Part shown: one piece after another, positions 10,850 through 26,981 of the stretch
Position numbering within the stretch: the stretch's first letter is position 1
Layout of the letters: every line of letters starts with the position of its first letter
IMG/VR virus record: IMGVR_UViG_3300044732_000890
Coordinates: 1-50,688 of that record
Source of the DNA: a virus
Reading direction: 5' to 3' (one strand)
Length of the DNA: 50,688 nucleotides
Position numbers and translations under genes: made by a program
The notes under the pieces: generated by a model
Told to the model about the DNA's origin: nothing
Seen by the model: the letters and a program-made list of their open reading frames with translations, nothing else
Database searches by the model: none

Positions 10850-11006
10850 CCTACGGCGCGGAACCCGCTACTTTGCCTCGGTTCAACCAAAAAGGCAACC
10901 CCCAAGGGTAAATTATTTTTCTGCAGAGGGAACCTTTTACCACCTCGGGCGTTGTAAATTGTTTTGTGCCCGCTAAAAATAATTTTACGCCACCCAAAAA
11001 TAAAGC

Positions 11007-11035
11007 TTGACTTCTGTTTCTAGCTGCCCTATATT
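11007..11035 (+). promoter_or_regulatory. Early promoter P1
   Basis: CTTGACT, 17 bases, CTATATT: an exact fit to the rhizobial housekeeping consensus CTTGAC-N17-CTATAT. It is preceded by the conserved block TAATTTTACGCCACCC and AAAAATAA. A 5-base-pair hairpin CGGTG/CACCG (11044-11063) and the leader GATAACGGAGAA follow before the first early gene. Confidence 0.9.
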
Positions 11036-11082
11036 ACAAGTTACGGTGATCACAACGACACCGCTGATAACGGAGAACCACG

Positions 11083-11358
11083 ATGACCAACACCACCTTC
11101 ACCGCCAACGAAATCGCCGCCCTTAAAGTTATCTTCGCCGATTGCCTTGACGGTATGGGCGGCAGTTCCTGGGAGGATCTTGAGAACGACCCCTACACTT
11201 GGTGCGACGCCAAGACTCTCGTTGCCAACGGATGGTCCAAGCCCGAGGCCGCTGGCACTTTTTCCGCTCTCGCTGCTAAGGGTGCTATCGATGAGGTTGA
11301 GAAGAATGAGTGGGCCTTGAATCTCACTCCGGCAGTTCGCGCTGCAGTCAACGTCTAA
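11083..11358 (+). CDS. Hypothetical early protein
   Basis: This 91-residue acidic protein is the first gene after the strong promoter P1, with GGAG 9 bases before the ATG. It begins MTNTTFTANEIAALKVIF and contains NGWSKPEAAGTFSALAAKGAIDEVE, which has the helix-turn-helix spacing of a winged-helix-like fold; this is a guess. I recognise no family. First position in the early region suggests a host-takeover or regulatory role. Confidence 0.75.
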   Translation: MTNTTFTANEIAALKVIFADCLDGMGGSSWEDLENDPYTWCDAKTLVANGWSKPEAAGTFSALAAKGAIDEVEKNEWALNLTPAVRAAVNV

Positions 11359-11360
11359 CC

Positions 11361-11384
11361 GGGGAGCCCAAGCTCCCCATTTTC
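11361..11384 (+). terminator. Stem-loop after the first early gene
   Basis: GGGGAGC/GCTCCCC (7 base pairs, 4-base loop) followed by ATTTT. The next gene's ribosome-binding site follows directly, so this is likely a partial terminator or an mRNA-stabilising hairpin. Confidence 0.55.
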
Positions 11385-11399
11385 AAAGAGGATATCCTT

Positions 11400-11678
11400 A
11401 TGACCGTCAAAGACCGCATCAGCCCGGCCAACATGATTATCGCCGAATTTCTTGACGTAGACATCAACGAAGTCACTGAAATGGTATACCAGCCGACCAT
11501 CTACCGCACCCCTCGCGTCTATTCGTGGGACGATGCGCCGTGGTCATACTTCTGCTGCCCACGCCCCGGCCAGAAGCCACCCAAGGGTTTTCAGTGGGAA
11601 ATTGCCGGCTACTCATGGCGCGAGGCTAACAAGAACCGCCCCGTCTACGGGGTTCGTTACGAAAGCATGAAAGGATAA
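11400..11678 (+). CDS. Hypothetical early protein
   Basis: This 92-residue protein starts at the ATG at 11400, preceded by AGAGGA; the open frame reaches further upstream into the previous gene but without a site. It is rich in Trp, Tyr and Pro (DDAPWSYFCCPRPGQKPPKGFQWEIAGYSW). I recognise no domain; a CC pair is the only possible metal-binding feature. Confidence 0.7.
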   Translation: MTVKDRISPANMIIAEFLDVDINEVTEMVYQPTIYRTPRVYSWDDAPWSYFCCPRPGQKPPKGFQWEIAGYSWREANKNRPVYGVRYESMKG

Positions 11679-11683
11679 CGAAT

Positions 11684-11890
11684 ATGAACCTTTTCGCCTA
11701 TCGCCGCGTAAATATCAAAACTGAGCTTTCCATGGAGCAGTTTGAACAGCTTCACGCCGACGTAGCCAAGGCGCGTGAAACTACCAAGATGGTTTACGTG
11801 GACAAGGTTGCCATGCAAACTTTACTCCGCGATTACTCTCGCCTTATCGACCGGCTTGAAAAGCTGGAAAAAGAAGAAGGTATGAATTAG
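11684..11890 (+). CDS. Hypothetical helical early protein
   Basis: This 68-residue, mostly helical protein has a C-terminal leucine-spaced coiled coil (LLRDYSRLIDRLEKLEKEE). It follows the previous gene by 5 bases and is probably co-transcribed. No family recognised. Confidence 0.65.
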   Translation: MNLFAYRRVNIKTELSMEQFEQLHADVAKARETTKMVYVDKVAMQTLLRDYSRLIDRLEKLEKEEGMN

Positions 11891-12060
11891 TTTATTACCT
11901 CGGGTATGTCAACCTCGAGGTGGCCCCAGCCAGCAGGTGGGCCTAACAACAGCTGGCCGCAAAGTAGCGTGGGACGCGTCCTCCCCCACGTTATTAGCAG
12001 GGCCGACCGGATGTGTTTCCCTTTTCACATCCGGTCGATCACCCTGATAAATTATTTTTA
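11891..12060 (+). other. Hairpin-rich non-coding trailer ending in a terminator
   Basis: About 170 bases without a gene, with several possible helices: GCCAGC with GCTGGC (around 11925-11960), CGTGGG with CCCACG (around 11968-11990), and a strong 11-base-pair stem GACCGGATGTG/CACATCCGGTC (12005-12015/12026-12036) that is soon followed by AAATTATTTTTA. The last is a terminator. The rest may be a structured RNA; no tRNA signature is present. Confidence 0.5.
12005..12060 (+). terminator. Terminator before promoter P2
   Basis: An 11-base-pair perfect stem with a 10-base loop, then GATCACCCTGATAAATTATTTTTA. The T-rich end lies 18 bases after the stem and merges into the upstream block of promoter P2. 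Confidence 0.6.
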
Positions 12061-12079
12061 GCTGGCCCAAAAATAACAC

Positions 12080-12108
12080 TTGACTTTTGTTTCTAGGTTC
12101 CCTATATT
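12080..12108 (+). promoter_or_regulatory. Early promoter P2
   Basis: CTTGACT-N17-CTATATT (bounds: TTGACT 12080-12085, TATATT 12103-12108), preceded by AAAAATAACA. The 5' leader holds a hairpin GAGGC/GCCTC (12118-12133) and then GATAACGGAGAAA before the next ATG. Confidence 0.9.
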
Positions 12109-12155
12109 GAGGTTACTGAGGCGATGAGGCCTCGGCTGATAACGGAGAAACGACC

Positions 12156-12353
12156 ATGATGACCGCCGAACAAATCCGCGCCCGCATCGAGGCTGACCTC
12201 GAGCTGACCAAGCGCAAGGTGGAGTTCCATCTTGCCGAATTCCGTCACGACTTTGATACCGTCAGCAATAAGATTTGGGCCGTCAAGGATGCCGAGCTTT
12301 CCTCCAGGGCTCGCACCCTCGAGATCCTCCTCCGCCAGATCGACCTCGGCTAA
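12156..12353 (+). CDS. Hypothetical coiled-coil early protein
   Basis: This 65-residue, highly charged and almost entirely helical protein (QIRARIEADLELTKRKVEFHLAEF) lies first after promoter P2. Two adjacent ATGs (12156, 12159) both fit GGAG. No family recognised. Confidence 0.7.
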   Translation: MMTAEQIRARIEADLELTKRKVEFHLAEFRHDFDTVSNKIWAVKDAELSSRARTLEILLRQIDLG

Positions 12354-12376
12354 CCCCTCCCAGAAAGGAGACTCTT

Positions 12377-12646
12377 ATGACCCGTAACGTTATCCCCCTC
12401 CGCGTCAACCCCTTCAAGGTCTCGTATGTTAACGAGCCGGCAAAGTCGGGTATGATCGCCGACACCAAGCGTGTTTTCGGTCCGGATGGGGAAGACAGCC
12501 GCTATGCTGTGGCTCCGGTTCACAGCCGTATCGGACAAGATGTTGTCTGGTTTGTCTGGGACGCTGAGCAGCAGGATGAGCTCGGCTTTGCCAAGGTGAT
12601 CCGTCAGGAGGACAGCTTTGAGGCTGCCGTGGCGGGTCTCATCTGA
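12377..12646 (+). CDS. Hypothetical early protein
   Basis: This 89-residue protein starts at the ATG at 12377 with AAAGGAG upstream; the frame is open earlier, but that part overlaps the previous gene. The sequence VVWFVWDAEQQDELGFAKVIRQEDSFEAAVAG looks like a small alpha/beta protein. Unknown role; co-transcribed from P2. Confidence 0.7.
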   Translation: MTRNVIPLRVNPFKVSYVNEPAKSGMIADTKRVFGPDGEDSRYAVAPVHSRIGQDVVWFVWDAEQQDELGFAKVIRQEDSFEAAVAGLI

Positions 12647-12652
12647 CACACC

Positions 12653-12691
12653 GGCTGGGTCAGTCAAAATAATTTGGCTGACCCAAAATAA
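12653..12691 (+). terminator. Terminator-like hairpin fused to promoter P3
   Basis: GGGTCAG and CTGACCC form a 7-base-pair stem around a loop that itself contains the palindrome CAAAATAATTTG; AAAATAAG follows and is already the upstream block of P3. End of one unit and start of the next are thus joined. Confidence 0.55.
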
Positions 12692-12694
12692 GTG

Positions 12695-12723
12695 TTGACT
12701 TCTGTTTCTAGCTAGCCTATATT
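12695..12723 (+). promoter_or_regulatory. Early promoter P3
   Basis: GTTGACT-N17-CTATATT. The 17-base spacer (TCTGTTTCTAGCTAGCC) is nearly the same as in P1, P2 and P4, so these promoters are copies of one cassette. The leader has CGGT/ACCG (12732-12746) and TGATAACGGAGA. Confidence 0.9.
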
Positions 12724-12772
12724 TCATCTTACGGTACACGACACCGCGGATAACTGATAACGGAGACACGAT

Positions 12773-13246
12773 ATGGCCCGCATTAATGACATCTACCGCA
12801 CCCGCACCAGCTACTTTGACAAACTGATGGAAGATGCTTGGAGCGTCGGTGAAACCAACGACTGCGCTGTCAAGGCGATTTGTGTGGTCACCGGAGCCGA
12901 GTACGCCGACGCGCACACTCGTTTAGCTGCACGCGGTCGCAAGAAAGGCCACGGCACTTACATGTTCGACACCCACGCCGTGATCCGCGACCTCGGTTTT
13001 AAACTGGAGCGTATGTCCCCCGGCGAGTTTCAGAAGAAGTATCCCCGCTCCAAGACCGGCGGTTACGTTTATAAGCAGCTGACCACCCATCACGTAGACC
13101 TCTACCCGGAGGCTTGGAATGACGGTCACGCCTACCTTATCCACACCTCGGGTCATGTGGCCGGTGCTCTGTGCGGTAAGCTTCACGATTGGACTCGCGG
13201 TCGTGCCAAGCGTATTGAATGTTTCTATCGCGTAACTAAAGTATAA
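12773..13246 (+). CDS. Putative papain-like cysteine-peptidase-fold protein
   Basis: This 157-residue protein contains ETNDCAVKAICVVTG (Cys near residue 31, after Asn-Asp) and, near the C-terminus, NDGHAYLIHTSGHVAGALCG. A Cys at the start of a helix with a later His in a strand is the arrangement of papain- and C39-like enzymes, and short phage proteins with NDCA.RA patterns occur. Whether it cuts anything is unknown. It is first after promoter P3, so it is strongly expressed early and may act on host proteins. Confidence 0.6.
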   Translation: MARINDIYRTRTSYFDKLMEDAWSVGETNDCAVKAICVVTGAEYADAHTRLAARGRKKGHGTYMFDTHAVIRDLGFKLERMSPGEFQKKYPRSKTGGYVYKQLTTHHVDLYPEAWNDGHAYLIHTSGHVAGALCGKLHDWTRGRAKRIECFYRVTKV

Positions 13247-13259
13247 AGGAGCCACTATT

Positions 13260-13418
13260 ATGAACTTCTTTGTCGCGTCATTTCACAACCCTAATTTTAT
13301 CATATCGTCAGCGTATCAGACGTTTTCCGAGGCCATGCACGCTGCCGAATGCATCAGGGTGTTTACCGGGGAACCTTGTCGGGTGATCCGCGTTGCATAT
13401 CTTTGGGTGACCCCGTAA
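13260..13418 (+). CDS. Small hypothetical protein (52 residues)
   Basis: An ATG with AAAGGAG upstream opens a 52-codon frame (starts MNFFVASFHNPNF, ends RVAYLWVTP) that stops exactly where the next hairpin-promoter block begins. It follows the previous gene by 13 bases. Two Cys are present; no family recognised. Confidence 0.65.
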   Translation: MNFFVASFHNPNFIISSAYQTFSEAMHAAECIRVFTGEPCRVIRVAYLWVTP

Positions 13419-13435
13419 AATAATTTTACGCCACC
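13405..13435 (+). terminator. Hairpin overlapping the stop codon, upstream of P4
   Basis: GGGTG/CACCC enclose a 15-base palindrome GTAAAATAATTTTAC (13415-13429). The stop codon of the 52-residue gene lies inside it. The same AATTTTACGCCACCC block stands before P1, so it belongs to the repeated promoter cassette. Confidence 0.55.
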
Positions 13436-13447
13436 CAAAAATAAAGC

Positions 13448-13476
13448 TTGACTTTCGTTTCTAGCTGCCCTATATT
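13448..13476 (+). promoter_or_regulatory. Early promoter P4
   Basis: CTTGACT-N17-CTATATT. The 60 bases from about 13417 to 13480 are nearly identical to those at P1. Leader hairpin GGGC/GCCC at 13486-13502, then CATAACGGAGAAA. Confidence 0.9.
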
Positions 13477-13524
13477 ACAAAACACGGGCGGCGATGATGC
13501 CCTCGCACATAACGGAGAAATAGA

Positions 13525-13722
13525 ATGAACCGCGAATTTAGCATCACCGCTCCCAAGACCTACGCCAGCAAGGACAACGCTCGCAAGGCTGTGGCTAAGA
13601 TCGGTGCCGAAAATCTCCGTCACTTTTACATGCAGAATGACGAGGGTCGCTGGTTTCCGGTGTTCGTCGGTCAAGAAGCTCTCCAGGCTGGTATCCACTT
13701 CCACTTTAATATTGTAGGCTGA
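13525..13722 (+). CDS. Hypothetical early protein
   Basis: This 65-residue basic protein begins MNREFSITAPKTYASKDNARKAVAKIG and ends HFHFNIVG. The DNARKAVAKIG..NLRHFYM pattern looks like a small alpha/beta fold that could bind nucleic acid, but this is a guess. First gene after P4. Confidence 0.7.
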   Translation: MNREFSITAPKTYASKDNARKAVAKIGAENLRHFYMQNDEGRWFPVFVGQEALQAGIHFHFNIVG

Positions 13723-13728
13723 TCAATC

Positions 13729-13748: not shown

Positions 13749-13777
13749 TCTCAAACCTCACATAAGGAACAACGCAT

Positions 13778-14611: not shown

Positions 14612-14618
14612 ACCCGGC

Positions 14619-14646: not shown

Positions 14647-14668
14647 TTAACTTGTAACGGAGAATGAA

Positions 14669-15180: not shown

Positions 15181-15303
15181 ATGTCTTCAGCCCCCAACCG
15201 ACGCTTTCGGATGTCGTTCGGTAAGTTGCATAGCGAAGAAGCTAGACTAAAGATATCAGAAGCCCAACGCAAAAGATGGGCAATAAAGAAAGGTAAAGTT
15301 TGA
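15181..15303 (+). CDS. NUMOD3-like small DNA-binding peptide (40 residues)
   Basis: This 40-codon frame from the ATG at 15181 contains GKLHSEEARLKISEAQRKRW, the pattern of the NUMOD3 motif, a DNA-binding module normally found in HNH and GIY-YIG homing endonucleases (G-x-x-x-S-x-E-x-x-x-K-I-S). Here it stands alone, very basic, with no nuclease domain. It ends in TGATG with the PLP-enzyme start, so the two are translationally coupled. It may be a remnant of a homing endonuclease or a DNA-targeting peptide used by the modification enzymes. No strong ribosome site is visible. Confidence 0.6.
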   Translation: MSSAPNRRFRMSFGKLHSEEARLKISEAQRKRWAIKKGKV

Positions 15304-16241
15304 TGGCTCTCCCTACCCCAGCAGACCTCGACCGCCTCGCCGCCAAGCTCACGCCTTGGGAAAACCCGCAGGGTTTTTGGTTCAAGCGAGAAGACAAGTT
15401 TGCCCCGCTCGGTTACGGTGGCCCGAATGGATCAAAATTACGTCAGCTAATTCACCTCTTTGCCCGGCACAAGGGTAACGCTACGCATGTGGTGACTGGT
15501 GCGAGCATTCAGTCTCCGCAGCATAGCATGACCGCGTTCCTCGCTGCCGTGCACGGTCTCCCCTCCCTGCATGTCGTCGGTGCCACGACGCCAGAAACCA
15601 TTATGCGTCACCCCAACCCGCTCATCGCCGCCGGGTTCGGAGCCGCGTTTGACTATATCAAAGTTGGCTACAACCCGGCTTTGCAGAAGCGTGTGGCAGA
15701 GCTCAAACGGGAGATGGACGCAGCCTTCGAGGTGCCGTATGGTATCACGCTCGCTACCGACCTCTCCAGCCCTGAAGACCTCACAGCCTTTCACAGCGTT
15801 GGAGCGGCGCAAGTGGCGAACATCCCGGAGGAGGTGACCACGCTTATCGTACCGGCGGGAAGCTGCAACTCGCTAACCTCTGTCCTGCTTGGCCTCACAA
15901 CGCACAGCAACAACGTGCAGAAGGTCGTCAGCATCGGCATCGGTCCCTCCAAGATCGGCTGGGTGCGTGACCGGCTGCGCAAAATGAACGTGGACCCCGA
16001 CCGGCTCGCGTTTGAATGGAACCACAACATCTCCCTGCACGACAGCGATTATGCCAAGTACGGGGACCGTATGCCCGAGACGTTCGCCGGTATCAACTTC
16101 CATCCTACGTATGAGGGGAAGATGGTGCGGTGGATGAAGGAGCACGATATCTTCCGCGCCAACGCAGACTGTGGCTACGGCTTCTGGATCGTTGGCTCTG
16201 ATAGCAACCCAGAGGTATGTCGTCCTTTCTTTACGAATTAA
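15303..16241 (+). CDS. Fold-type II PLP-dependent enzyme, likely DNA-base tailoring
   Basis: This 312-residue protein is related to ACC deaminase, D-cysteine desulfhydrase and tryptophan synthase beta. Lys45 in GPNGSKLRQL matches the cofactor-binding lysine position, and VPAGSCNSLTS (about residue 183) matches the glycine/serine-rich phosphate loop. Metabolic enzymes of this family are rare in phages, but PLP enzymes recur in thymidine-hypermodification clusters; in Salmonella phage ViI one acts on an amino acid already joined to the base. The place beside the transferase, kinase and thymidylate-synthase homologue supports such a role. The start is the ATG at 15303, with AAAGG 9 bases upstream. 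The exact reaction (decarboxylation, deamination or elimination) cannot be read from the sequence. Confidence 0.82.
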   Translation: MALPTPADLDRLAAKLTPWENPQGFWFKREDKFAPLGYGGPNGSKLRQLIHLFARHKGNATHVVTGASIQSPQHSMTAFLAAVHGLPSLHVVGATTPETIMRHPNPLIAAGFGAAFDYIKVGYNPALQKRVAELKREMDAAFEVPYGITLATDLSSPEDLTAFHSVGAAQVANIPEEVTTLIVPAGSCNSLTSVLLGLTTHSNNVQKVVSIGIGPSKIGWVRDRLRKMNVDPDRLAFEWNHNISLHDSDYAKYGDRMPETFAGINFHPTYEGKMVRWMKEHDIFRANADCGYGFWIVGSDSNPEVCRPFFTN

Positions 16242-16265
16242 ATTCGCACTGCCTAAAAATAACGC

Positions 16266-16294
16266 TTGACTTCCTCCCCCGGTGCGCCTAAATA
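16266..16294 (+). promoter_or_regulatory. Early promoter P5 (modification cluster)
   Basis: CTTGACT-N17-CTAAATA, preceded by CTAAAAATAACG. The spacer differs from P1-P4. Leader hairpin CGGGG/CCCCG (16303-16317), then GTATAACGGAGA. It drives the nuclease-like, methyltransferase-like and two transferase genes. Confidence 0.85.
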
Positions 16295-16337
16295 AGGTTC
16301 ATCGGGGGTTGGCCCCGCGTATAACGGAGATAGAATA

Positions 16338-16703
16338 ATGGCTCGTAACACCACTGGACATTCTGGCGAGAAGTTTGTTGAAGCTATGCTCGGTTTTCAG
16401 GGCTTCACGGCTCTCGTCGCCCCGGCGGGCAACCCTAACTGGGATATCATGGTCGCTGAAAGTGGTAAGAAAATTTCGGTAAAGGCCTCTAACTCGTCCG
16501 GTTTTGTAGCTGAGTTTTCAGCTACAGACACGTTCGATGTTCTGGCCGTAGTGGATGCATTTAATTCACGCTATCCACGTGTATGGTTCATCCCCCGCTA
16601 TATTGCGATCAAGCTCCCCACCGTAGGCGGTAAGGTGCGTATAAAAGCTTCGGATTTGAATTACGATCTTGCTCAGTTTGAAACCAACTTCGATGTCCTC
16701 TAA
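16338..16703 (+). CDS. PD-(D/E)XK-like protein of unknown role
   Basis: This 121-residue protein has the core of the PD-(D/E)XK fold: a helix with Glu15, then GNPNWDIMVAESGKKISVKAS, where Asp36 and Lys49 stand at the active-site spacing, but the usual Glu before x-Lys is Ser/Val. It could be a divergent or inactive nuclease that binds DNA. It is the first gene after P5 and starts the modification operon, so a role in recognising or protecting modified DNA is possible. Confidence 0.6.
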   Translation: MARNTTGHSGEKFVEAMLGFQGFTALVAPAGNPNWDIMVAESGKKISVKASNSSGFVAEFSATDTFDVLAVVDAFNSRYPRVWFIPRYIAIKLPTVGGKVRIKASDLNYDLAQFETNFDVL

Positions 16704-16713
16704 CGGAGACCCC

Positions 16714-17457
16714 ATGACCACTCACTGGAAAATCCTAAACAAATATCCGTTCGAGCTGATTCCCGGCGAGGCTAAAGAGATGCCCGATGGAGATCTCTCA
16801 TACTATGAGTATCTGAACGGTCGCTGGAAGGAGACTGGCAAGAACGTGATGGCTATCGCGTGGCTGCTGCGCAACTTCCCGCAGGGTCTAAAGATTATCG
16901 AGCCGTTCGGCGGCTGTGGCGTGTTCTCGGTGGCTATTCAAGAGATAATGAAGCCAAGCTATCATCGCATCGGCGAGCTGGATGGCGACTGCTACAAACA
17001 GCTTACGCACGTTATGTCTCGCTATCCCAGCGCCGCTGTCTTCAACGATGATGCCCATCAGACCCTCGGCACCATCGCCGGGGACATCTACGTCTGCGAC
17101 TTCCCGTTCTTCACCCTGATCAAACACGAGACCGGGTATTGGGTTGAGGAGATGAAGCGTATAGTCGCCCAGCGTCCACGTGCTATCCTCATCACGGATG
17201 GAGCAAGCTGCCGTTACCACTTCACGGCTAAGGCTCTTTCCAACAGAGGCTACCCGGTCACCCCGGACCGTGAGAGCTACGCTTATTGCTTTGACCAGAT
17301 GATGTCCCGCACATACGACTATCACGTGACCGGGATGGTCTATCACGGCACATGTTTCTACATCCGAGTTGAGCCCGAGCCTCGTGAGATTGAGTTCCTG
17401 AAGCTGGAGGCTGGCTCGGGCGTCAACGGTCTGCGTCCCGACCCGAAAGGTATTTGA
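16714..17457 (+). CDS. Methyltransferase-like protein in the modification cluster
   Basis: This 247-residue protein starts at the ATG at 16714 (AACGGAG upstream). It resembles class I SAM-dependent DNA methyltransferases: EPFGGCGVFSVA (63-74) as the SAM loop, GELD (87-90) as the end of strand 2, NDD (111-113), and CDFPFF (128-133) where adenine methyltransferases have DPPY. The changed catalytic motif argues against a standard adenine methyltransferase. It may act on the modified thymine side chain or have lost methylation. It lies directly upstream of the transferase gene (one base apart). Confidence 0.65.
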   Translation: MTTHWKILNKYPFELIPGEAKEMPDGDLSYYEYLNGRWKETGKNVMAIAWLLRNFPQGLKIIEPFGGCGVFSVAIQEIMKPSYHRIGELDGDCYKQLTHVMSRYPSAAVFNDDAHQTLGTIAGDIYVCDFPFFTLIKHETGYWVEEMKRIVAQRPRAILITDGASCRYHFTAKALSNRGYPVTPDRESYAYCFDQMMSRTYDYHVTGMVYHGTCFYIRVEPEPREIEFLKLEAGSGVNGLRPDPKGI

Positions 17458-17458
17458 C

Positions 17459-18460
17459 ATGACCATAGATTATCGCCCGCACCCAACCCGCGTCATGTAC
17501 TGCGAGGATCTCTACCGGGTCAACCTCGAGCATGGGATCATGCCGGGTCTCGTCTACCTCTACATGCCCGCTCTCAAACAGACCCTCAACTGGTCTGAGG
17601 AGCGTGCGCTGTGGTTCGCCTTCATCAACGGTATGACCCAGAACCCGCTCACCTCTCTGCTGATCCTTGAGCAGCTGCCGGATGTACCCGACCCCGGCGA
17701 CCCCATCACCACGTTTGACGAGTGGTTCAACCGTGAGTGGCCGCGCCTCTTCTTCGACACCGACCGGCTGAAGAACAAGCGCAACACGATATCTGCGATC
17801 AAGTCCTACGCCAAGCTCGTCGGCGAGTATGGCTCGCAGCAGCTTATGCTAGACAACCGTACCTATCCCGAGCTCTGGAACATCGTGTCCAACGGCTACT
17901 ACAGCTTCGGTCGCCTGTCCACGTTCTCGTATCTTGAGTACGTGCGGATCATGGGTCACGGATCCATTTGCGCCGACCTTATGGTCTCGGACAAAGGTGG
18001 CTCTAAATCCCACCGCAACGGTTTGCTGTTCCTGACTGGTCTTGACCATATGGTTAATGATCCCCGCGCTAAGAACGGGTTTGATGGCAACTATCAGGAC
18101 TACGACAAGATGTGCGGCTGGCTGACCGAACAGGCTAACGAGTTCCTGCGCCGGTTCACCGCTAAGCACACGTACCAGCATACCGGCTACTTTACATTTG
18201 AGTCGCAGCTATGTCAATTTAAAAATAATTTCTTTGGTCGACGTTATCCAGGATGCTACGCCGACATGGCGTTTGACCGGCTATTGAAACATGAAGACGC
18301 GTGGGGAAAGGACCGAGCGACGAAATTGATTTGGGATATCCGCACATCTCTTCCAGACTGGCTGCGTAACGAGGCTAAGAACGACAAACTGTCTATACCG
18401 GACCGGGCCAAGATCTTCCCGCGCACCGGCTTCCCGTACAGAGGAGAACATTTCCTGTGA
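17459..18460 (+). CDS. Amino acid:DNA transferase-like protein (alpha-glutamyl/putrescinyl-thymine pyrophosphorylase family)
   Basis: This 333-residue, mostly helical protein starts RVMYCEDLYRVNLEHGIMPG and has the family pattern WFAFINGMTQNP (52-63). This family was predicted, and in phages ViI and M6 shown, to replace the pyrophosphate of an activated 5-hydroxymethyl-dU in DNA by an amino acid or polyamine. It overlaps the next gene by GTGA. The assignment comes from motif memory; the substrate (Ser, Gly, Glu, putrescine) cannot be read. Confidence 0.8.
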   Translation: MTIDYRPHPTRVMYCEDLYRVNLEHGIMPGLVYLYMPALKQTLNWSEERALWFAFINGMTQNPLTSLLILEQLPDVPDPGDPITTFDEWFNREWPRLFFDTDRLKNKRNTISAIKSYAKLVGEYGSQQLMLDNRTYPELWNIVSNGYYSFGRLSTFSYLEYVRIMGHGSICADLMVSDKGGSKSHRNGLLFLTGLDHMVNDPRAKNGFDGNYQDYDKMCGWLTEQANEFLRRFTAKHTYQHTGYFTFESQLCQFKNNFFGRRYPGCYADMAFDRLLKHEDAWGKDRATKLIWDIRTSLPDWLRNEAKNDKLSIPDRAKIFPRTGFPYRGEHFL

Positions 18461-19332
18461 ACTCAACCCTCAAGCACTTCATAACCGAGCGCGAGGCCAT
18501 TCGTGTGCGCAAGGCCTCGGGTCAGCCCGCACCGTGGACAACCGACCCCATTTTACAGCAATATCGTTTCTGTAACGTCCACCGCCGCGACGACCGCGTG
18601 TCTCAGTGGCTGCTGAAGCACTATTATCCACACACCGCCAAGGGTGTGGACGCTTGGTTTCCGGCTTTGGTTGCCCGGTTCATCAACTGGCCTCCCACCC
18701 TGAAGCTCCTATTGGAGTCCGGCGTGGGGCTGGCAGCCGGGGAGGTGTGGAACCCTCATGCGTTCGAGGCGGTGATCGCTAGGCTCAAGTCTGCCGGCGA
18801 GAAGGTTTACACCGGAGCGTACATGATCTATCCGGGTAGTAGGGATGGCGACACCGCCGTGGCAAACAAGGAGCAGTTCCTCGCGCGGCAGGTCTTCGCC
18901 GGTGCGCGGGCTAACACCTCCAAGATTCGTCATGCCATCTGGCAGCTGAGCATAGAAAAGACGGTACACGAGCTCACCCAGAGCTACGGTATCTCTACTT
19001 TCATGGCAGGGCAGGTCGCCGCCGATTTGACTTACCTATACGATGCGCTGGACCTCGCCTTGGATAAGCGAACCTACGCACCTATGGGACCCGGCTCCAT
19101 CCGGGGTCTGAACCGTATACACGGCTTTAAGCTAACGCATACTTGGCAACCTCACGAATTTGTAGAGGCTTTGATGGATATTCATAGAGATATTGAGCGC
19201 GAGCTGGGAATTATGGACCTCACGCTTCACGATGTGCAAAACATTGCAGCTTGTGAATATGACAAATACCTGCGTGTGCTCAATGGTGAGGGTAAACCTC
19301 GCGCAAATTACCGACCAGAAACCGCTTTTTGA
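18457..19332 (+). CDS. 5-hmdU DNA kinase helical-domain-like protein
   Basis: This 291-residue protein contains ILQQYRFCNVHRRDDRVSQW (33-52), the hallmark of the helical domain that in several phages is fused to the P-loop 5-hydroxymethyl-dU DNA kinase, and which was first named a clade of thymine pyrophosphorylases. Here kinase and helical domain are separate genes (the kinase follows at 19390). It starts with GTG overlapping the preceding stop, with AGAGGAGA upstream. It probably binds the modified base or its DNA for phosphorylation. Confidence 0.8.
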   Translation: MNSTLKHFITEREAIRVRKASGQPAPWTTDPILQQYRFCNVHRRDDRVSQWLLKHYYPHTAKGVDAWFPALVARFINWPPTLKLLLESGVGLAAGEVWNPHAFEAVIARLKSAGEKVYTGAYMIYPGSRDGDTAVANKEQFLARQVFAGARANTSKIRHAIWQLSIEKTVHELTQSYGISTFMAGQVAADLTYLYDALDLALDKRTYAPMGPGSIRGLNRIHGFKLTHTWQPHEFVEALMDIHRDIERELGIMDLTLHDVQNIAACEYDKYLRVLNGEGKPRANYRPETAF

Positions 19333-19334
19333 AC

Positions 19335-19363
19335 TTGACTTAACCCGTAAACCCGGCTAATCT
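19335..19363 (+). promoter_or_regulatory. Promoter for the kinase / dUMP-hydroxymethylase pair
   Basis: CTTGACT-N17-CTAATCT starts 3 bases after the stop of the helical-domain gene. It lacks the AAAAATAA upstream block, so it is probably weaker than P1-P4. The leader is AAGATAACGGAGAA without a hairpin. Confidence 0.75.
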
Positions 19364-19389
19364 ATCGCAACAAGATAACGGAGAACTAG

Positions 19390-19989
19390 ATGCCAATCAT
19401 CATCAACCTGCGTGGAACGTCCGGCTCCGGCAAGACTACGGCCGCCCGGTTTTTCCTCAACAACTACACCAATATCGAAATGCGGCGCAGCGTGACCTCG
19501 CCCAAGGGCCGCACTTCATCTAAGATTATGGGTTATGCCATAGACGTTCCCACCTTGCAGCAGTCGCTGTATCTTGTCGGGGCGTACGGTGCCGTGTGCG
19601 GGGGCTTGGATACCATGGGCACTCAGGCCGAGCATGCCGATCTGATCCTCAAGGCCTACTCCGCCGGCAACGTGCTGTGCGAGGGTCTACTGCTGAGCTC
19701 AGTAAGCTCCGGGGCCACAGTCCCGGCGGCCATGATCGGGGCGGCCGGTAAGGAGCGTGTGATCTTTGCTTTTATGGACACTCCGCTAGACGTATGTTTG
19801 GACCGCGTGCGCGGCCGCCGAGCGGCCCGAGGCGATGATAAACCTTTCAACGAGACCAACACTCGTAAGAAGTATGAGGACACACAAGCCGCTCGTCAGC
19901 GACTTATTGACGAGGGCTGCCGTGTCGTAGACATCAGCCACCTCAACCCCGGACCCCAGCTCCTTTCTCTTTATCAGGACAACGAATAA
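19390..19989 (+). CDS. 5-hydroxymethyl-dU DNA kinase-like P-loop protein
   Basis: This 199-residue protein has Walker A GTSGSGKT (9-16), VLCEGLLLSS, and FMDTPLDVCLDRVRGRR as a nucleotide-kinase-like lid region. It resembles the P-loop kinases that phosphorylate 5-hydroxymethyl-dU within DNA in hypermodifying phages. Its neighbours (helical partner before, thymidylate-synthase homologue 1 base after) fit this exactly. A generic nucleoside kinase is the alternative. Confidence 0.8.
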   Translation: MPIIINLRGTSGSGKTTAARFFLNNYTNIEMRRSVTSPKGRTSSKIMGYAIDVPTLQQSLYLVGAYGAVCGGLDTMGTQAEHADLILKAYSAGNVLCEGLLLSSVSSGATVPAAMIGAAGKERVIFAFMDTPLDVCLDRVRGRRAARGDDKPFNETNTRKKYEDTQAARQRLIDEGCRVVDISHLNPGPQLLSLYQDNE

Positions 19990-19990
19990 C

Positions 19991-20947
19991 ATGCACTTCA
20001 TCTTCGAAAACTGCAACGACGCATGGCCGACGACGGTTCAGATGATACAAACATCTGGAGTTATCCGTAACAGTCGCAACGGTCGCGTTTCTGAATATCC
20101 GGATCCGGTTACGATAACATACGAGCGTCCGTATGAGCGGGTCTTGTTCTGCCCCTTGCGCAACATCAACCCCTTTTTGCACTTCTTTGAGCCACTTTGG
20201 ATTCTTGCCGGACGCCGGGATGTTGAGTTCCTTTCTAACATTGTTGGTCGTTTCCGCGACTATTCAGATGACGGTAAGGTATTCAACGCTGCCTATGGTC
20301 ACCGGCTTCGTTACCCTAACGATCAGATCGCCGAAGCTATTAAGCGTCTAAAGCGTAATCCGGACGATAGACAAGTCGTTCTTCAGATACGCAAGCCAGA
20401 CGACATTTACTACACGGGAAAGGACACCGCATGCAATTTGTCAATTGCGCTTAAGGTGCGTAATCGCTATTTGGACATTCACGTATTTAATCGCTCTAAC
20501 GACGTTGTTTGGGGCGGCCCTGCGGGAGGTGCAAATTACCCTCAGTTTACAACCATCCAGGAATATATTGCCGGTCACGTGGGTTGCGGTATTGGCCGGT
20601 ATCACCACACAACAGATAGTATGCACGCTTACATCGACAGCCCAGACTGGGACCGGGTAAAAGACGTTCAGGGTTATCACGACTTATACCTTTGGGACAA
20701 TGTTCCGCCATATCGTCTTTTTGATGGTTTGTTGTTCCCTGAACTGTTTGATCAAGATCTGCAGTTCTTCTTTAGCGAGCGGGCTACAACCGGATACGCC
20801 ACCTCTTACTTTAAGGATGTCGTTGGGCCGATGTGGGCCGCGTTTCAGGCGTATAAGCGTAGGGAGCAGGTAGATTTTTCCGCTATACGAGCCAGGGATT
20901 GGGCTTTTGCGGTTGAATCTTGGCTCGCGCGCAAAAATAAAGCTTGA
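19991..20947 (+). CDS. Thymidylate synthase homologue, probable dUMP 5-hydroxymethylase
   Basis: This 318-residue thymidylate-synthase-fold protein shows Cys148 in DTACNLSIAL at the nucleophile position, FNRSNDVVWGG (compare QRS.D in thymidylate synthase) and HHTTDSMHAYI near the end of the site. Between them GGPAGGANYPQF replaces the usual GLPFNIA, typical of divergent phage pyrimidine hydroxymethylases. It would make 5-hydroxymethyl-dUMP with methylene-tetrahydrofolate and water. The stop codon lies inside the -35 box of the next promoter. Confidence 0.85.
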   Translation: MHFIFENCNDAWPTTVQMIQTSGVIRNSRNGRVSEYPDPVTITYERPYERVLFCPLRNINPFLHFFEPLWILAGRRDVEFLSNIVGRFRDYSDDGKVFNAAYGHRLRYPNDQIAEAIKRLKRNPDDRQVVLQIRKPDDIYYTGKDTACNLSIALKVRNRYLDIHVFNRSNDVVWGGPAGGANYPQFTTIQEYIAGHVGCGIGRYHHTTDSMHAYIDSPDWDRVKDVQGYHDLYLWDNVPPYRLFDGLLFPELFDQDLQFFFSERATTGYATSYFKDVVGPMWAAFQAYKRREQVDFSAIRARDWAFAVESWLARKNKA

Positions 20948-20972
20948 CTTTCTTTTCTGGGCCGCCTATATT
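20944..20972 (+). promoter_or_regulatory. Early promoter P6, -35 overlapping a stop codon
   Basis: CTTGACT-N17-CTATATT, preceded by CAAAAATAAAG. The TGA of the hydroxymethylase gene is the central TGA of TTGACT, and AAAAATAA codes its last residues. Leader hairpin GAGCC/GGCTC (20982-20997), then GATAACGGAGAA. Confidence 0.9.
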
Positions 20973-21018
20973 GGGGTTACTGAGCCGCTGATGGCTCGGC
21001 TGATAACGGAGAATTAAC

Positions 21019-21252
21019 ATGAAGACCGCCCTTCTTTCCCTCATCCTCTCGGCCCTCGCAGTTTGCGCGGCTGTTCCCCTGTTCCTGTTCAGCGCTGGTC
21101 TTGAGATGAACTCACCCGGTTCTGGCGTCGCCTTCGTTCAGGTTGCCACATGGGTTACCGTCGTACTCATCGCCCAGCCGGTTCTCGTCGTACCCTTTGT
21201 GACGATCCGTGCGCTCGTTGGTGCCGGTGCTCGCCTGATCAAGTCCAACTAA
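21019..21252 (+). CDS. Small membrane protein
   Basis: This 77-residue protein has two hydrophobic segments (about 3-26, with LSLILSALAVCAAVPLFLF, and 37-66, with VATWVTVVLIAQPVLVVPFV) and a basic C-terminus, so two membrane passes are likely. First gene after the strong promoter P6. No family recognised; an early inner-membrane role such as superinfection exclusion is possible. Confidence 0.75.
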   Translation: MKTALLSLILSALAVCAAVPLFLFSAGLEMNSPGSGVAFVQVATWVTVVLIAQPVLVVPFVTIRALVGAGARLIKSN

Positions 21253-22487: not shown

Positions 22488-24325
22488 TGGCCCGCTCAAC
22501 GCTCATCGTTGATACAGAGACCTTCTCCAACGTCTTTTTGCTTGCCGGCAAGAACGTGGAGAATGGTCGACGGTTCCATTTTTGGCTACACGAAGTCGGG
22601 CCAGACCCGATCCGTGCGCTGATAAGGAACCCCGATGTGACGTTGGTGACGTTCAACGGTCGCTATTTTGATATCCCAGTGCTCGCCGCTGCAGCCAAGG
22701 GGATGACCGAGAGGGAGATCAAGGACCTCGCCAACGCCCTAATCGACGACCGCATGCCGCCATGGACCGCCGAACGCAAGTACGATCTACCCCGCGTAAC
22801 GGTTGATCACGTGGACCTTATGCAGGTTGCGCCCAGTTTTGTGGGTCTCAAAGCCTATGGTGCTCGGATGGGGATGCCGTGGCTCAAGGAGCTACCTTTC
22901 CCGCACGACGCCCAAATCCACCCGGAGCAGCTTGATGACGTTCTACACTATTGCTACAACGATCTCGACACTACTCACGAACTATTCAACCGGCTGCGCG
23001 AGCCGCTTGAGCTTCGCATCCAGATGAGCAAGGAGTATGGGGTGGACATGCGCTCCAAATCTGATACGCAGATGGCTGAGGCCGCCTTTATTAAGCGGCT
23101 GAACTTGAAGCGTGGGGAGCCCAATATCCCACCGTATGTTACGTACACCGCGCCCGATTACATTCAGTATCGTGATCCGGTTTTAACTCAGATCAAGGAG
23201 CAGATCGAAGCTCATCGCTTCCGGGTTAACCAGACTACCGGGCACGTGATCATGCCGGACTTTCTCAGTCAGCCAATCACTATCGGGCCGGGGACGTATC
23301 AAATGGGTGTGGGTGGTCTACATAGCACGCACGATAAAAGCGTATGCTATACCGCTGACGCTGAGTGGGGTCTGACTGACATTGATGCTGCGTCCTTTTA
23401 TCCCAGCATCATGGTGCATGCTAACATGATCCCGAAGAACACGGGTAAGGCTTTTCTTGACGAGTACCGGAGGATTTACGAGCGCCGCCTGACCGCTAAA
23501 CGCGTCGGGGATAAAACGACCGCTAACACACTCAAGATCTCTCTCAACGGCACCTTCGGCAAGACGGCAGACCGCTTTTCCCCACTATATAGCCCGGACC
23601 TGATGATCGCTATCACGCTCACGGGGCAGCTTGTGTTGATGTGTCTGATCGAGAGGTTCCACAACGCGGGGTTCTACGTAGCCTCCGCCAACACGGACGG
23701 TATCGCGGTCTGCTATCCCAACGCGGACCGAGGTGTATTGGAGCAGATCGTCAATGAGTTCTCAGCGGTTTCCAAGTTTGAATTTGAGTATACACCTTAC
23801 CGCGTACTGGCACTCAAAGATGTTAATAACTATATAGCTGTGACGCCGGAGCGCAAGATCAAAGCTAAGGGTTTGTACGCACCACCTGACCTGCGTAAGA
23901 ATCCATCGGCTTCGATCGTCGCCAAAGCCGTTGGTGAGTGGTTGAGCCGGGGAACCGCGTTCGAGGATACTATCCGCTCGGGCACCTTGACGGAGTTTTT
24001 GTCGGCTCGAAACGTAACCGGAGGAGCCGTTCAGGGTGAAACCTACCTTGGGAAGGTGGTTCGTTGGTATCAAAGCACCGATGCGTCACTTTCTCCCTTG
24101 ACTTATCAGAAGAATGGAAATAAGGTTCCCAAGACCGACGGGGCAAGAGCCCTTATGCTGATAACCCAAAACGAAATACCTGAGGATATAGATATTTCAT
24201 GGTACATCCGGGAGTGTGTTAGGGTAGCCAAGTTGCTAGGCTGTGCTCACTTTCTAACAACGGAACAGTTAGCCTGCGATCCCCCAAAACAAAGGAAGAT
24301 TAGGAGTAAAAAGAATGGAAATTGA
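22487..24325 (+). CDS. Family B DNA polymerase (compact)
   Basis: This 612-residue protein starts at the ATG at 22487, coupled by TGATG to the previous gene. Exonuclease: VDTET (Exo I, 8-12), FNGRYFD (Exo II), YCYNDLDTTHELF (Exo III). Polymerase: motif A DIDAASFYPSI (about 301), motif B KISLNGTFGK (about 349), motif C NTDG (about 402), then a KxKG-type region IKAKGLY. It is clearly shorter than typical PolB enzymes (750-900). In motif C the first Asp of DTD is Asn, while the second, metal-binding Asp is present. It would copy the genome, probably with 5-hydroxymethyl-dUTP. Confidence 0.93.
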   Translation: MARSTLIVDTETFSNVFLLAGKNVENGRRFHFWLHEVGPDPIRALIRNPDVTLVTFNGRYFDIPVLAAAAKGMTEREIKDLANALIDDRMPPWTAERKYDLPRVTVDHVDLMQVAPSFVGLKAYGARMGMPWLKELPFPHDAQIHPEQLDDVLHYCYNDLDTTHELFNRLREPLELRIQMSKEYGVDMRSKSDTQMAEAAFIKRLNLKRGEPNIPPYVTYTAPDYIQYRDPVLTQIKEQIEAHRFRVNQTTGHVIMPDFLSQPITIGPGTYQMGVGGLHSTHDKSVCYTADAEWGLTDIDAASFYPSIMVHANMIPKNTGKAFLDEYRRIYERRLTAKRVGDKTTANTLKISLNGTFGKTADRFSPLYSPDLMIAITLTGQLVLMCLIERFHNAGFYVASANTDGIAVCYPNADRGVLEQIVNEFSAVSKFEFEYTPYRVLALKDVNNYIAVTPERKIKAKGLYAPPDLRKNPSASIVAKAVGEWLSRGTAFEDTIRSGTLTEFLSARNVTGGAVQGETYLGKVVRWYQSTDASLSPLTYQKNGNKVPKTDGARALMLITQNEIPEDIDISWYIRECVRVAKLLGCAHFLTTEQLACDPPKQRKIRSKKNGN

Positions 24326-24644
24326 TAACGAAATCCCTCACAAGGTTTACGTGGTTATGTACGACGCAGCGAAGGATCTCAGCGACGCTAAACGCTTTGG
24401 CGAGCTGGAAGCAGTTTTTCTTCGACCCATATATGACGACGATAAAATTGATCCCGTTGAACGTGCGCGATCCGCTCTGAAACATTATGAGGATGGTGAT
24501 TATATCCTGATGATTGGCGATCCCATGCTTTGCGGAGTTGTTACGTCTGTTGCGTTGGAGTATTCTAATACGGAGCGTCTTAACGTGCTGCGCTGGGATA
24601 GGCGCAGTATGTCTTACAAACCGATGTCCTTGAATTTCACCTAA
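24315..24644 (+). CDS. Hypothetical protein overlapping the polymerase end
   Basis: This 109-residue acidic protein starts 11 bases inside the polymerase gene, with GGAG upstream. It begins MEIDNEIPHKVYVVMYDAAKDLSD and contains DGDYILMIGDPMLCGVV, an alpha/beta pattern. No family recognised; by place it belongs to the replication operon. Confidence 0.75.
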   Translation: MEIDNEIPHKVYVVMYDAAKDLSDAKRFGELEAVFLRPIYDDDKIDPVERARSALKHYEDGDYILMIGDPMLCGVVTSVALEYSNTERLNVLRWDRRSMSYKPMSLNFT

Positions 24645-24657
24645 GAAAGAGAACGCT

Positions 24658-25410
24658 ATGACCGATAAAGAAACTGACTGGAAGAACGCCCTGATCAAGG
24701 GTCCGCAAGCTCGCCCGCCCCGTATCGTCATCTATGGCGGTCACGGTATTGGCAAGTCTACGCTCGCTTCCAAGTTCCCAAACCCGATATTCATAAGCAC
24801 GGAAGACGGCTTGACGAGCATCGACACCACATCCTTCCCCAAGGCCGACAACCTCTCCGAGGTTGTAGACGCTATCAAGAAGCTGATGAAAGAGCCGCAC
24901 GACTTCAAGACCGTGGTGCTTGACTCGGTTGACTGGCTGGTGGAACCGCTGATCACGGAGCATATCGAGAGCTCGTTTGAGGCCAAGGACCTCGCCTATG
25001 GTAAGGGTAACATGCTCATCGCTGAGGAGTTCCGCAAGATCTTGCAGGGCTTTGATGTGCTGATCAAAAAGCGCAACATGAACGTGGTGCTTATCGCCCA
25101 CGCCGCTGTGGTGCGCTACGAGAACCCGATGACGGAGCCGTACGACCAGTTCCGCCCCAAGCTGCCTAACCGCTGCAACGCTTTGCTGCAGGAGTGGGCT
25201 GACGTTATGGCTTACGCTGCGTTTAAGGTCATCGTCAAGAAGACCGACGCCGGGTTCAACAACACCGTCAACCGTGGGGTGACCACCGGGGACCGTCTGC
25301 TGCACCTGATTGAGGCTCCGGCCTATATCGCCAAGAACCGTTACGGCACGCCGGACACCGTGCCGATGACGTTTGAAGACCTGTCCAAACACATCCCCGT
25401 AATCGTCTAA
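24658..25410 (+). CDS. Sak4-like RecA-fold ATPase (recombination)
   Basis: This 250-residue protein has Walker A YGGHGIGKST (about 27-36), Walker B VVLDSVDWL (about 83-91) and NVVLIAHA, as in AAA_24/Sak4 phage proteins. These are RecA-core, single-strand annealing or strand-exchange ATPases that work with an SSB. The SSB-like gene follows at 12 bases, which is the usual pairing. Confidence 0.85.
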   Translation: MTDKETDWKNALIKGPQARPPRIVIYGGHGIGKSTLASKFPNPIFISTEDGLTSIDTTSFPKADNLSEVVDAIKKLMKEPHDFKTVVLDSVDWLVEPLITEHIESSFEAKDLAYGKGNMLIAEEFRKILQGFDVLIKKRNMNVVLIAHAAVVRYENPMTEPYDQFRPKLPNRCNALLQEWADVMAYAAFKVIVKKTDAGFNNTVNRGVTTGDRLLHLIEAPAYIAKNRYGTPDTVPMTFEDLSKHIPVIV

Positions 25411-25422
25411 AGGAGAATCAAC

Positions 25423-25929
25423 ATGGTTACTTTCAATTGGGACAACGACGACTATCAAGACAAGCGTCCTAACTACGATCCAGTACCTCCGGGCATCTAC
25501 CGGCTGAAGGCTCTCGAGGCCGAGGAGAAGACGACCTCCACCGGCGGTGAGATGATCTCCGTGAAGTACCGGATCTGTGAAGGTGAGTACGAGGGCCGCC
25601 TGATCTGGAACAACTTCAACGTGGTCAACAAGTCGGCTCAGGCCGAGCGCATCGGACGCTCACAGGTCGCGGCTTGGGCTCGCGCTTGTGGTAAGCCGAA
25701 TGCCAGTTCCACCGATCAGCTTCTGGACGCTCCGTTCTCGGCCCGCGTCAAGATCGAGGAGCAGGCGGGTTACAAGCCTCGTAACCAGATCAACGGCTTC
25801 TTGGCGGAAGCTCCCCGTCCCGCCGAGTCGGCAAAGCCCGCTGCCGCTCCCAAGGCTGCGACCGCTAAGCCCGCTGCTGCGCCCAAGCCTCCGATGGGTA
25901 ACCAAAAGAACCCATGGGAAAATGACTAA
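25423..25929 (+). CDS. Single-strand-DNA-binding-like protein (DUF669)
   Basis: This 168-residue protein starts with an OB-like part of the DUF669 type (YDPVPPGIYRLKALEAEEKTT, then ISVKYRICEGEYEGRLIWNNFNV). From about residue 130 there is an Ala/Pro/Lys linker (AAPKAATAKPAAAPKPP), ending in an acidic NPWEND tip that resembles SSB tails that bind partner proteins. It likely covers single strands for the Sak4-like ATPase. Good AAAGGAG site. Confidence 0.83.
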   Translation: MVTFNWDNDDYQDKRPNYDPVPPGIYRLKALEAEEKTTSTGGEMISVKYRICEGEYEGRLIWNNFNVVNKSAQAERIGRSQVAAWARACGKPNASSTDQLLDAPFSARVKIEEQAGYKPRNQINGFLAEAPRPAESAKPAAAPKAATAKPAAAPKPPMGNQKNPWEND

Positions 25930-25937
25930 GGGTATCT

Positions 25938-25969
25938 GTGGGGGCTTCGGCCCCCACCAAATTATTTTT
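25938..25969 (+). terminator. Intrinsic terminator before P7
   Basis: GTGGGGGC-TTCG-GCCCCCAC (8 base pairs, UUCG loop), then CAAATTATTTTTG. The T-rich part is also the upstream block of promoter P7. Confidence 0.85.
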
Positions 25970-25989
25970 GGGCGACCTAAAAATAACGC

Positions 25990-26018
25990 TTGACTTTTGC
26001 GCCGGCAGGCCTCATATT
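25990..26018 (+). promoter_or_regulatory. Early promoter P7
   Basis: CTTGACT-N17-TCATATT, preceded by CTAAAAATAACG. Leader ACTGATAACGGAGAA without hairpin. Confidence 0.85.
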
Positions 26019-26047
26019 GGACTCAAGACTGATAACGGAGAACCAAG

Positions 26048-26911
26048 ATGACCGACTTCTTTGACCACCTCCCCGAGTTTGAAATCATCGAAGGCCCGGC
26101 TCGTCCGGCCCAGACCCGTCAGACGTTCCCCTGCGAAAGCTGCGGCGGCAAGGGTAAGGTCGCCAAGGTGTACGGCTATACGCCGATGACCCAGCGCACC
26201 TACATGAACACCTGTCCGATTTGCAAAGGTAAGGGCCACTTCTTCACCTCCTACGCCGATCGTCAGAAGTCTCAGGCTCAAGCCGCTGCTGCTAAGGTTC
26301 GCAAGGCTGAGGCCGCCCGTGAGGACTTTGATACCGCCAACCCCGGCGTCCGCGAGTTCCTTATGGGTGCTATGAATTGGTCGAGCTTCGCCGCTTCCTT
26401 GTTTGAGAGCCTCGCCAAGCACCATAGCCTCTCGGAGAAACAACTTGCGGCGGCTCAGAGCATGATGGAGAAGGCCAAGTCTCGCGACGCCGAGCGCAAC
26501 GCTAAGCGCGCAGCCAATACCGTGACGCTGGATGCCTCCAACATCCTCGGCATGTTCTCTACGGCCAAGGCCAACGGCTTGAACCGTCGCGCCCTGCTGG
26601 CCGGTGGCACCGAGGGTAAGCTCAAGGTCACCCCGTCCTCGGACACGAGCCGCAACGCTGGTGGTCTGTGGGTCACGGTCGACGACGAGTTCGTCGGCGG
26701 CATCAGCAAGACCGGCGAGTTCCAGCCGCGCAGCAACACCCCGGCATGGGCTAAGGACGCCCTGCTCCGCATGGCTGCCGACCCGGCTGGCGAGGCTCGC
26801 CTCTACGGTCAGCGTACCGGCGTGTGCTGTTGCTGTGGTCGCGAGCTTACCGACCCGGTCAGCATCGAGGCTGGAATAGGCCCGATATGTGCAGAGAAGT
26901 GGGGGCTCTAA
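26048..26911 (+). CDS. Zinc-finger protein with DnaJ-like CxxCxGxG and C-terminal DUF6011-like part
   Basis: This 287-residue protein has CESCGGKGK (Cys29, Cys32) and CPICKGKGH (Cys56, Cys59), which make one DnaJ-type zinc site. A helical, Ala-rich middle and a basic domain GGLWVTVDDEFVGGISKTG follow. The end CCCCGRELTDPVSIEAGIGPICAEKWG is the DUF6011-type treble-clef pattern that appears in many phage and plasmid proteins. It probably binds nucleic acid; the exact role is unknown. It is transcribed alone between P7 and a terminator that overlaps its stop. Confidence 0.78.
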   Translation: MTDFFDHLPEFEIIEGPARPAQTRQTFPCESCGGKGKVAKVYGYTPMTQRTYMNTCPICKGKGHFFTSYADRQKSQAQAAAAKVRKAEAAREDFDTANPGVREFLMGAMNWSSFAASLFESLAKHHSLSEKQLAAAQSMMEKAKSRDAERNAKRAANTVTLDASNILGMFSTAKANGLNRRALLAGGTEGKLKVTPSSDTSRNAGGLWVTVDDEFVGGISKTGEFQPRSNTPAWAKDALLRMAADPAGEARLYGQRTGVCCCCGRELTDPVSIEAGIGPICAEKWGL

Positions 26912-26933
26912 GCCCCCATCAAATTATTTTTTG
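26900..26933 (+). terminator. Intrinsic terminator overlapping a stop codon, before P8
   Basis: TGGGGGCT-CTA-AGCCCCCA (8 base pairs); the TAA stop of the zinc-finger gene lies in the loop and stem. TCAAATTATTTTTT follows. Confidence 0.85.
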
Positions 26934-26952
26934 GGCAGCCTAAAAATAACAC

Positions 26953-26981
26953 TTGACTTTTGAGAGCATCGGTGGCATATT
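26953..26981 (+). promoter_or_regulatory. Early promoter P8
   Basis: CTTGACT-N17-GCATATT, preceded by CTAAAAATAACA; leader CTGAATAACGGAGAAA. It drives the nuclease / MT-A70 pair and what follows, to about 30.75 kb. Confidence 0.85.

Follow-up and report, generated by a model that had tools for sequence, protein, structure and literature searches.

Phage T4 carries many strong early promoters (Pe), composed of an upstream (UP) element, a −35 and a −10 hexamer for the unmodified host polymerase, which compete with host promoters immediately after infection (PMC2988021). In T4-type phages, the promoter early stem-loops (PeSLs; Arbiol 2010, Comeau 2014) are mobile regulatory cassettes, described second-hand in PMC4503421 as repeated early-promoter modules at junctions of gene shuffling between related phages. 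Cluster K mycobacteriophages have start-associated and extended start-associated sequences (SAS/ESAS), short repeats that include the Shine-Dalgarno (SD) sequence just before start codons; half have inverted repeats upstream, they are tied to genes of different families, and their function was left open (PMC3203893). The present study concerns an array of nine promoter sites (P1–P9, in order along the window) in the viral record IMGVR_UViG_3300044732_000890, the window being the whole 50,688 nucleotides (nt) analysed. The array is real and functional-looking, a variant of T4-type early promoters combined with PeSL-like shuffling cassettes. We consider it probable that its members are UP-enhanced cassettes of the housekeeping-sigma type, read by the unmodified host polymerase and acting in addition as junctions for gene shuffling.

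The differences from the known systems are as clear as the likenesses. Unlike the Pe of T4, the promoters here have no conserved TGn element, the distal A/T box lies one turn further upstream, the leader hairpin and SD belong to the repeated module, and the terminase of the phage is of the HK97 type. Unlike in PeSLs, most copies here have no adjacent terminator that we could find (a terminator-like hairpin lies directly upstream at P8 and P9 only, and leader hairpins occur at six other sites); the stem-loop is instead in the mRNA leader, between promoter and SD. The phage group also differs, as the HK022-like terminase and the Phage_portal and Phage_capsid matches are not those of a T4-type phage. 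By analogy, the array may be said to work like a PeSL rather than to be one. As for SAS/ESAS, sequence and host are different, every module here has a clear promoter, and the block shared by the sites is ATAACGGAGA, not the consensus 5'-GGGATAGGAGCCC.

Architecture of the nine promoter sites

The −35 hexamers start at 11007, 12080, 12695, 13448, 16266, 19335, 20944, 25990 and 26953, all on the plus strand, exactly where the initial annotation had placed them. Common to all nine are TTGACT, a 17-nt spacer and a start codon 55–78 bases from the −35. AAAATAA lies 3 nt upstream of the −35 in eight, and the exception, 19335 (P6), had been correctly singled out. With a weight matrix spanning −12 to +30 around the −35, the eight A-box sites score 42–63 bits; among 100 dinucleotide shuffles of the window, no score exceeded 15.9. 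On leave-one-out, each of the eight is outscored by family members only, P9 (26953) apparently also by a minus-strand relative of the motif. P6 is not outstanding by itself: it scores 15.0 bits in the matrix and −25.6 when left out, and is not recovered independently. The case for P6 as a promoter rests on context and conservation.

The copying between sites that had been pointed out is equally evident. From 10976 onward, P1 and P4 share 58 of 60 bases, and they are 85% identical over 98 nt; P2 and P7 are 84% identical over 85 nt, and the spacers of P1–P4 are near copies of one another. The sites had further been matched to CTTGAC-N17-CTATAT, the sigma70 motif of S. meliloti (PMC2873474), which may not be that of the host. 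Alignment and scoring against this consensus gave 9–12 of 12 positions across the nine sites. The match is complete at P1, P2, P4 and P7, with no further 12/12 match elsewhere in the window on either strand, and incomplete at the other five (11 positions at P3 and P5, 10 at P8 and P9, 9 at P6). Judged from sequence, the nine sites can almost certainly be taken as genuine promoters of the housekeeping-sigma type, because they are kept in a diverged relative and lie at a similar distance before non-structural genes. To this extent the earlier label of host-type promoters stands; its rhizobial part is only a possibility, as discussed below. The components are as follows.

10975–11085, plus strand: cassette P1; left A/T box 10975–10985 (AAAAATAATTT), AAAAATAA 10996–11003, −35 11007, −10 TATATT ending 11035, leader hairpin 11044–11063, SD block 11067, start codon 11083.
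12049–12158, plus strand: cassette P2; left A/T box 12049–12059 (AAATTATTTTT), AAAAATAA 12069–12076, −35 12080, hairpin 12116–12135, SD block 12139, start codon 12156.
12665–12775, plus strand: cassette P3; left box 12665–12675, AAAATAA, −35 12695, weak hairpin 12732–12746, SD block 12757, start codon 12773.
13416–13527, plus strand: cassette P4; left box 13416–13426, AAAAATAA, −35 13448, hairpin 13485–13505, SD block 13509, start codon 13525.
16234–16340, plus strand: cassette P5; degenerate left box, AAAAATAA, −35 16266, −10 TAAATA, hairpin 16303–16317, SD block 16321, start codon 16338.
19335–19392, plus strand: P6; no A/T boxes, −35 19335, −10 TAATCT, short leader, SD block 19375, start codon 19390.
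20913–21021, plus strand: cassette P7; no good left box, AAAAATAA, −35 20944, hairpin 20980–20999, SD block 21003, start codon 21019; the end of a thymidylate-synthase-like gene (last codons and stop) is overlapped by the A-box and −35.
25938–26050, plus strand: cassette P8; terminator-like hairpin 25938–25957, left box 25959–25969, AAAAATAA, −35 25990, −10 CATATT, SD block 26032, start codon 26048.
26899–27014, plus strand: cassette P9; terminator-like hairpin 26899–26919, left box 26921–26931, AAAAATAA, −35 26953, −10 CATATT, SD block 26996, start codon 27012.

Upstream A/T boxes and the mRNA leader

When the −35 hexamer is numbered as starting at −35, AAAAATAA occupies −46 to −39, the proximal slot of a UP element, and the AAAATAA box lies at about these positions in eight of the nine sites. 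In the relative, whose sites we number R1–R8, AAAAATAA is present in 6/8 and AAAACAA in R4. UP elements are bound in the minor groove by the C-terminal domains of the alpha subunit (alpha-CTDs), with a proximal part at −45 to −37 and a distal part at −58 to −45 (PMC2613000), and the A-rich block is best read as such an element. A register test over IMG/VR is consistent with this: AAAAATAA-N2-CTTGACTT-N16-TATATT occurs in 98 stretches (37 spacer clusters), compared with 22 stretches (7 clusters) when the same boxes are set 5 nt further apart. Unrelated phages thus favour the register too, which makes the A-box/−35 arrangement a feature of promoters in general, not one peculiar to this phage.

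A second box of 11 nt, AAATTATTTTT or its reverse complement AAAAATAATTT, is found at an offset of −30 to −32 from the −35 in P1–P4, P8 and P9, and is degenerate in P5 and P7. Allowing at most one mismatch and either orientation, it occurs eight times in the whole window, six of these at promoters; in the relative, all five occurrences are at promoters. At P8 and P9 the T-tail of the terminator-like hairpin directly upstream is itself the left box. The box reads AAATTATTTTT in P2, P8, P9, R1, R3 and R6 and the reverse complement in P1, P3, P4, R2 and R5, at constant spacing, a behaviour that would suit A/T-tract binding by flexibly tethered alpha-CTDs. At about −66 to −56, it does not fill the canonical distal slot (about −58 to −45). 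One further AAATTATTTTT box stands alone at 10910–10920, between the divergent primase gene and P1; it might be a remnant, or else belong to a leftward promoter.

Alternatively, the A/T boxes could be operators, bound by a repressor or activator of the phage that would coordinate the whole set of promoters, with TTATTTTT-N9-AAAAATAA as the dimer site. The two boxes do form a near-perfect palindrome at P2 and P8, and the idea stays alive because Cro/YdaS-like helix-turn-helix (HTH) and DnaA domain IV-like proteins are encoded at 30.3–31.1 kb. We nevertheless think it unlikely: a strict dimer operator would disallow a left box in both orientations at the same spacing, the right box recurs in the same register in unrelated phages, and the left box is absent from two members. 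The DnaA domain IV-like protein (30309–30746; Bac_DnaA_C, 1.8e-11) is a stand-alone one and adjoins the HTH protein (30789–31055).

Between the −10 and the SD, a hairpin is predicted in six leaders (P1–P5 and P7); P6, P8 and P9 have short leaders without one. Four leaders could be aligned without gaps for a covariation test, in which 93% of cells pair and two pairs have changed on both sides in a compensatory manner, while sliding the partner by 1–3 columns lowers pairing to 25–46%. An RNA stem in the leaders is moderately supported by these comparisons, and might act as a 5' stabiliser of the mRNA or in exposing the SD. An earlier permutation of hand-picked stem arms was discarded as evidence, as the arms had been selected for pairing; no Rfam RNA was matched in the region. 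All nine sites have the SD block ATAACGGAGA in common, and similar blocks stand before genes that lack a promoter of their own, at 14654, 16700 and 21261. The second A/T box, the leader hairpins, the shared SD block and the UP-element reading, together with the minus-strand sites at 5006 and ~7180 described below, go beyond the initial annotation.

The full cassette would thus comprise a UP element (two-box in most copies), the −35 and −10, a leader hairpin (6/9) and a strong SD block. Unmodified host RNA polymerase would recognise it through alpha-CTDs at the A/T boxes around −43 and −61 and through sigma contacts to TTGACT and TATATT. The non-structural region, with its small takeover-type genes and its genes for thymine hypermodification, replication and recombination, would be turned on in the form of several transcription units in parallel. 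As these units start with near-identical cassettes, the cassettes may also serve as exchange junctions for units or single genes between related phages, presumably by homologous recombination.

Permuted blocks and the genes behind the promoters

A pattern scan joining promoter and SD block recovered one true relative, the uncultivated IMGVR_UViG_3300042691_015157 (20,155 bp), with proteins 42–76% identical; another contig, L171, gave many loose promoter matches without the module. The relative has eight modules: six in the region that corresponds to P1–P4, and single counterparts of P7 and of P6. The P6 and P7 promoters are conserved in position, and since the P6 counterpart likewise lacks both A/T boxes, P6 looks like a conserved weaker site, not a damaged copy. 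Neither the P5 cassette nor its gene was found at the corresponding place.

The order of genes differs between the two phages. The window reads P1-A-B, P2-C-C', P3-D, P4-E, DUF932, and the relative P-D, P-C*-C', P-A-B, P-X, P-Y, P-E*, DUF932. A, B, C' and D are orthologs (50–65%); for C/C*, E/E* and the genes behind P7, no relatedness between the two phages was detectable. Thus, three blocks are permuted, from A-B, C', D to D, C', A-B, each of them starting at a promoter, and the orthologs of the genes behind P1 and P3 each have a cassette of their own in the relative. From this comparison, the moved blocks begin at promoters, and at three places (P2, P4 and P7) the first gene has been replaced and the promoter kept; block permutation and replaced first genes at cassettes, as in PeSL-type shuffling, are seen in one relative. 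Concerted evolution within the genome is not supported, the within-genome identity being 0.70–0.71 and that between orthologs 0.75.

P1–P4 head small proteins without a Pfam match, and P5 heads a small protein followed by part of the thymine-hypermodification set. Behind P6 lie a nucleotide kinase and a thymidylate-synthase-like enzyme; behind P7 an HD nucleotidase, PolB, a Sak4-like protein and SSB; behind P8 a DUF6011 protein; and behind P9 a weakly NERD-like protein, a methyltransferase, a Cas4 exonuclease and a helicase. The structural genes run leftward. Further features are as follows.

15300: pyridoxal phosphate (PLP)-dependent enzyme of the hypermodification set, before P5.
17459: ADDT amino acid:DNA transferase of the same set.
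18457: HMUDK_hel/aGPT-PPlase of the same set.
14653–14663, plus strand: SD block GTAACGGAGA, before a gene without its own promoter.
4978–5020, minus strand: motif relative TAAAAATAACGCTTGACTTTTGCGGCAAACCGGCGTAAGGG, 28.6 bits, upstream of the leftward head genes.
About 7151–7180, minus strand: weaker CTTGACTT-N16-CTAAATA-type site, upstream of the terminase genes.

The hypermodification set, including the kinase and the thymidylate-synthase-like enzyme, spans 15300–20947. Within it, a 262-aa protein (16669–17457) has no family match and is 76% identical in the relative.

All sites had been expected to be read early. The early or middle label is drawn from gene content, and such timing may hold less evenly than expected: P6 is weak, and P8 and P9 have CATATT as their −10. 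Nor is the motif confined to the rightward early region, since the minus-strand site at 5006, with the A-box (AAAAATAA) and TTGACTT, precedes head genes. Similar promoters occur elsewhere. The low-GC (about 0.30–0.33) phage contigs L010, L027, L030, L044, L052 and L094 each carry at least two AAAATAA-NNC-TTGACTT...GTATATT promoters, some with copied spacers, as independent sets of the same type. Separately, many low-GC viral contigs (L029, L032, L034, L047, L059, L067 and others) have a strongly conserved AAAATAATGCTTGACTTAATGGTTATTT...GTATATT...GGTTATCGTTCTCAAAGAATTGAATCTC stretch, which may comprise a promoter together with the 5' end of an RNA or gene common to them.

Weight of the evidence, host and implications

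The rhizobial host proposed initially is no more than a possibility. Our searches found no close DNA relative among annotated phages and no close phage relative with a known host; in the uncultivated relative, most sites do not share the first C of CTATAT, and none of the eight matches at 12/12. IMG/VR yielded no relatives by the polymerase or by the 262-aa protein, and no such array was present at 41 hypermodification-gene loci or in Aminobacter phage Erebus. The exact composite has four matches in 84,980 bacterial and archaeal species genomes, three titled Clostridia, Oscillospiraceae or Clostridium and none titled as an alphaproteobacterium, and with only these it is unusable for naming the host. 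Host assignment through the terminase, portal, tail, ADDT and DUF6011 proteins gave mixed hosts and no answer.

Could an alternative sigma factor, RpoH, read the sites, alone or jointly with sigma70? The sigma70 and sigmaH promoter sets of S. meliloti do overlap, at 298 promoters (PMC3616915). We give this little credence, as eight sites fit the published sigma70 motif at 10–12 of 12 positions and the host group is itself not established. The near copies P1/P4 (98 nt) and P2/P7 (85 nt) might suggest that the repeats arose by recent duplication and have no role in regulation, being neutral or only hot spots of recombination. This is hardly credible: the boxes, −35, spacing and SD block persist in the relative despite protein identities of 42–76%, every copy ends at a start codon, and the leader hairpins still pair through changed bases.

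Several points nonetheless weigh against UP-enhanced cassettes that double as shuffling junctions. First, the distal box lies 9–10 bp, about one helical turn, further upstream than textbook descriptions place it; a good left box is missing from P5, P7 and R8, and P6 has neither box. Second, the excess of leader hairpins over dinucleotide shuffles (combined Fisher p 2e-7) comes from a test that treats related leaders as independent, and the covariation values observed, from four sequences, were reached by 26 of 500 shuffles. Third, the Cro/YdaS-like HTH and DnaA domain IV-like proteins could act on the promoter sites. Fourth, a single relative was found, and the permutation counts are small.

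In two alphaproteobacteria, the synthetic promoters of highest activity were those with UP elements from SELEX (systematic evolution of ligands by exponential enrichment), and in this group canonical UP elements are reported as essentially absent from known promoters (PMC11497788). Such boxes could allow a phage to outcompete host promoters, in analogy to T4 early promoters. More tentatively, the composite cassette might be selected as a unit and act, outside the T4 group, as a transferable 'gene socket', with a distal UP box working one turn upstream in either orientation and homology for early-gene gain and loss; we think this somewhat doubtful as a whole. The advantage of such a socket in a GC-rich host would follow from the near absence of canonical UP elements from known host promoters. 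Thymine hypermodification at C5 is in the major groove. One may speculate that minor-groove UP contacts are the least affected by it, a possible reason for the phage to rely on UP elements.

If the host is an alphaproteobacterium, the cassettes would be natural canonical UP elements where these are reported to be essentially absent (PMC11497788), and ready-made strong expression parts. The cassette resembles a natural plug-and-play expression unit assembled from known parts. T4-PeSL-like modular shuffling around promoter cassettes is seen here in a phage with an HK97-type terminase, and the array offers a clear, testable picture of how transcription may be taken over by a phage whose genome is predicted to contain hypermodified thymine and in which no phage RNA polymerase was recognised.

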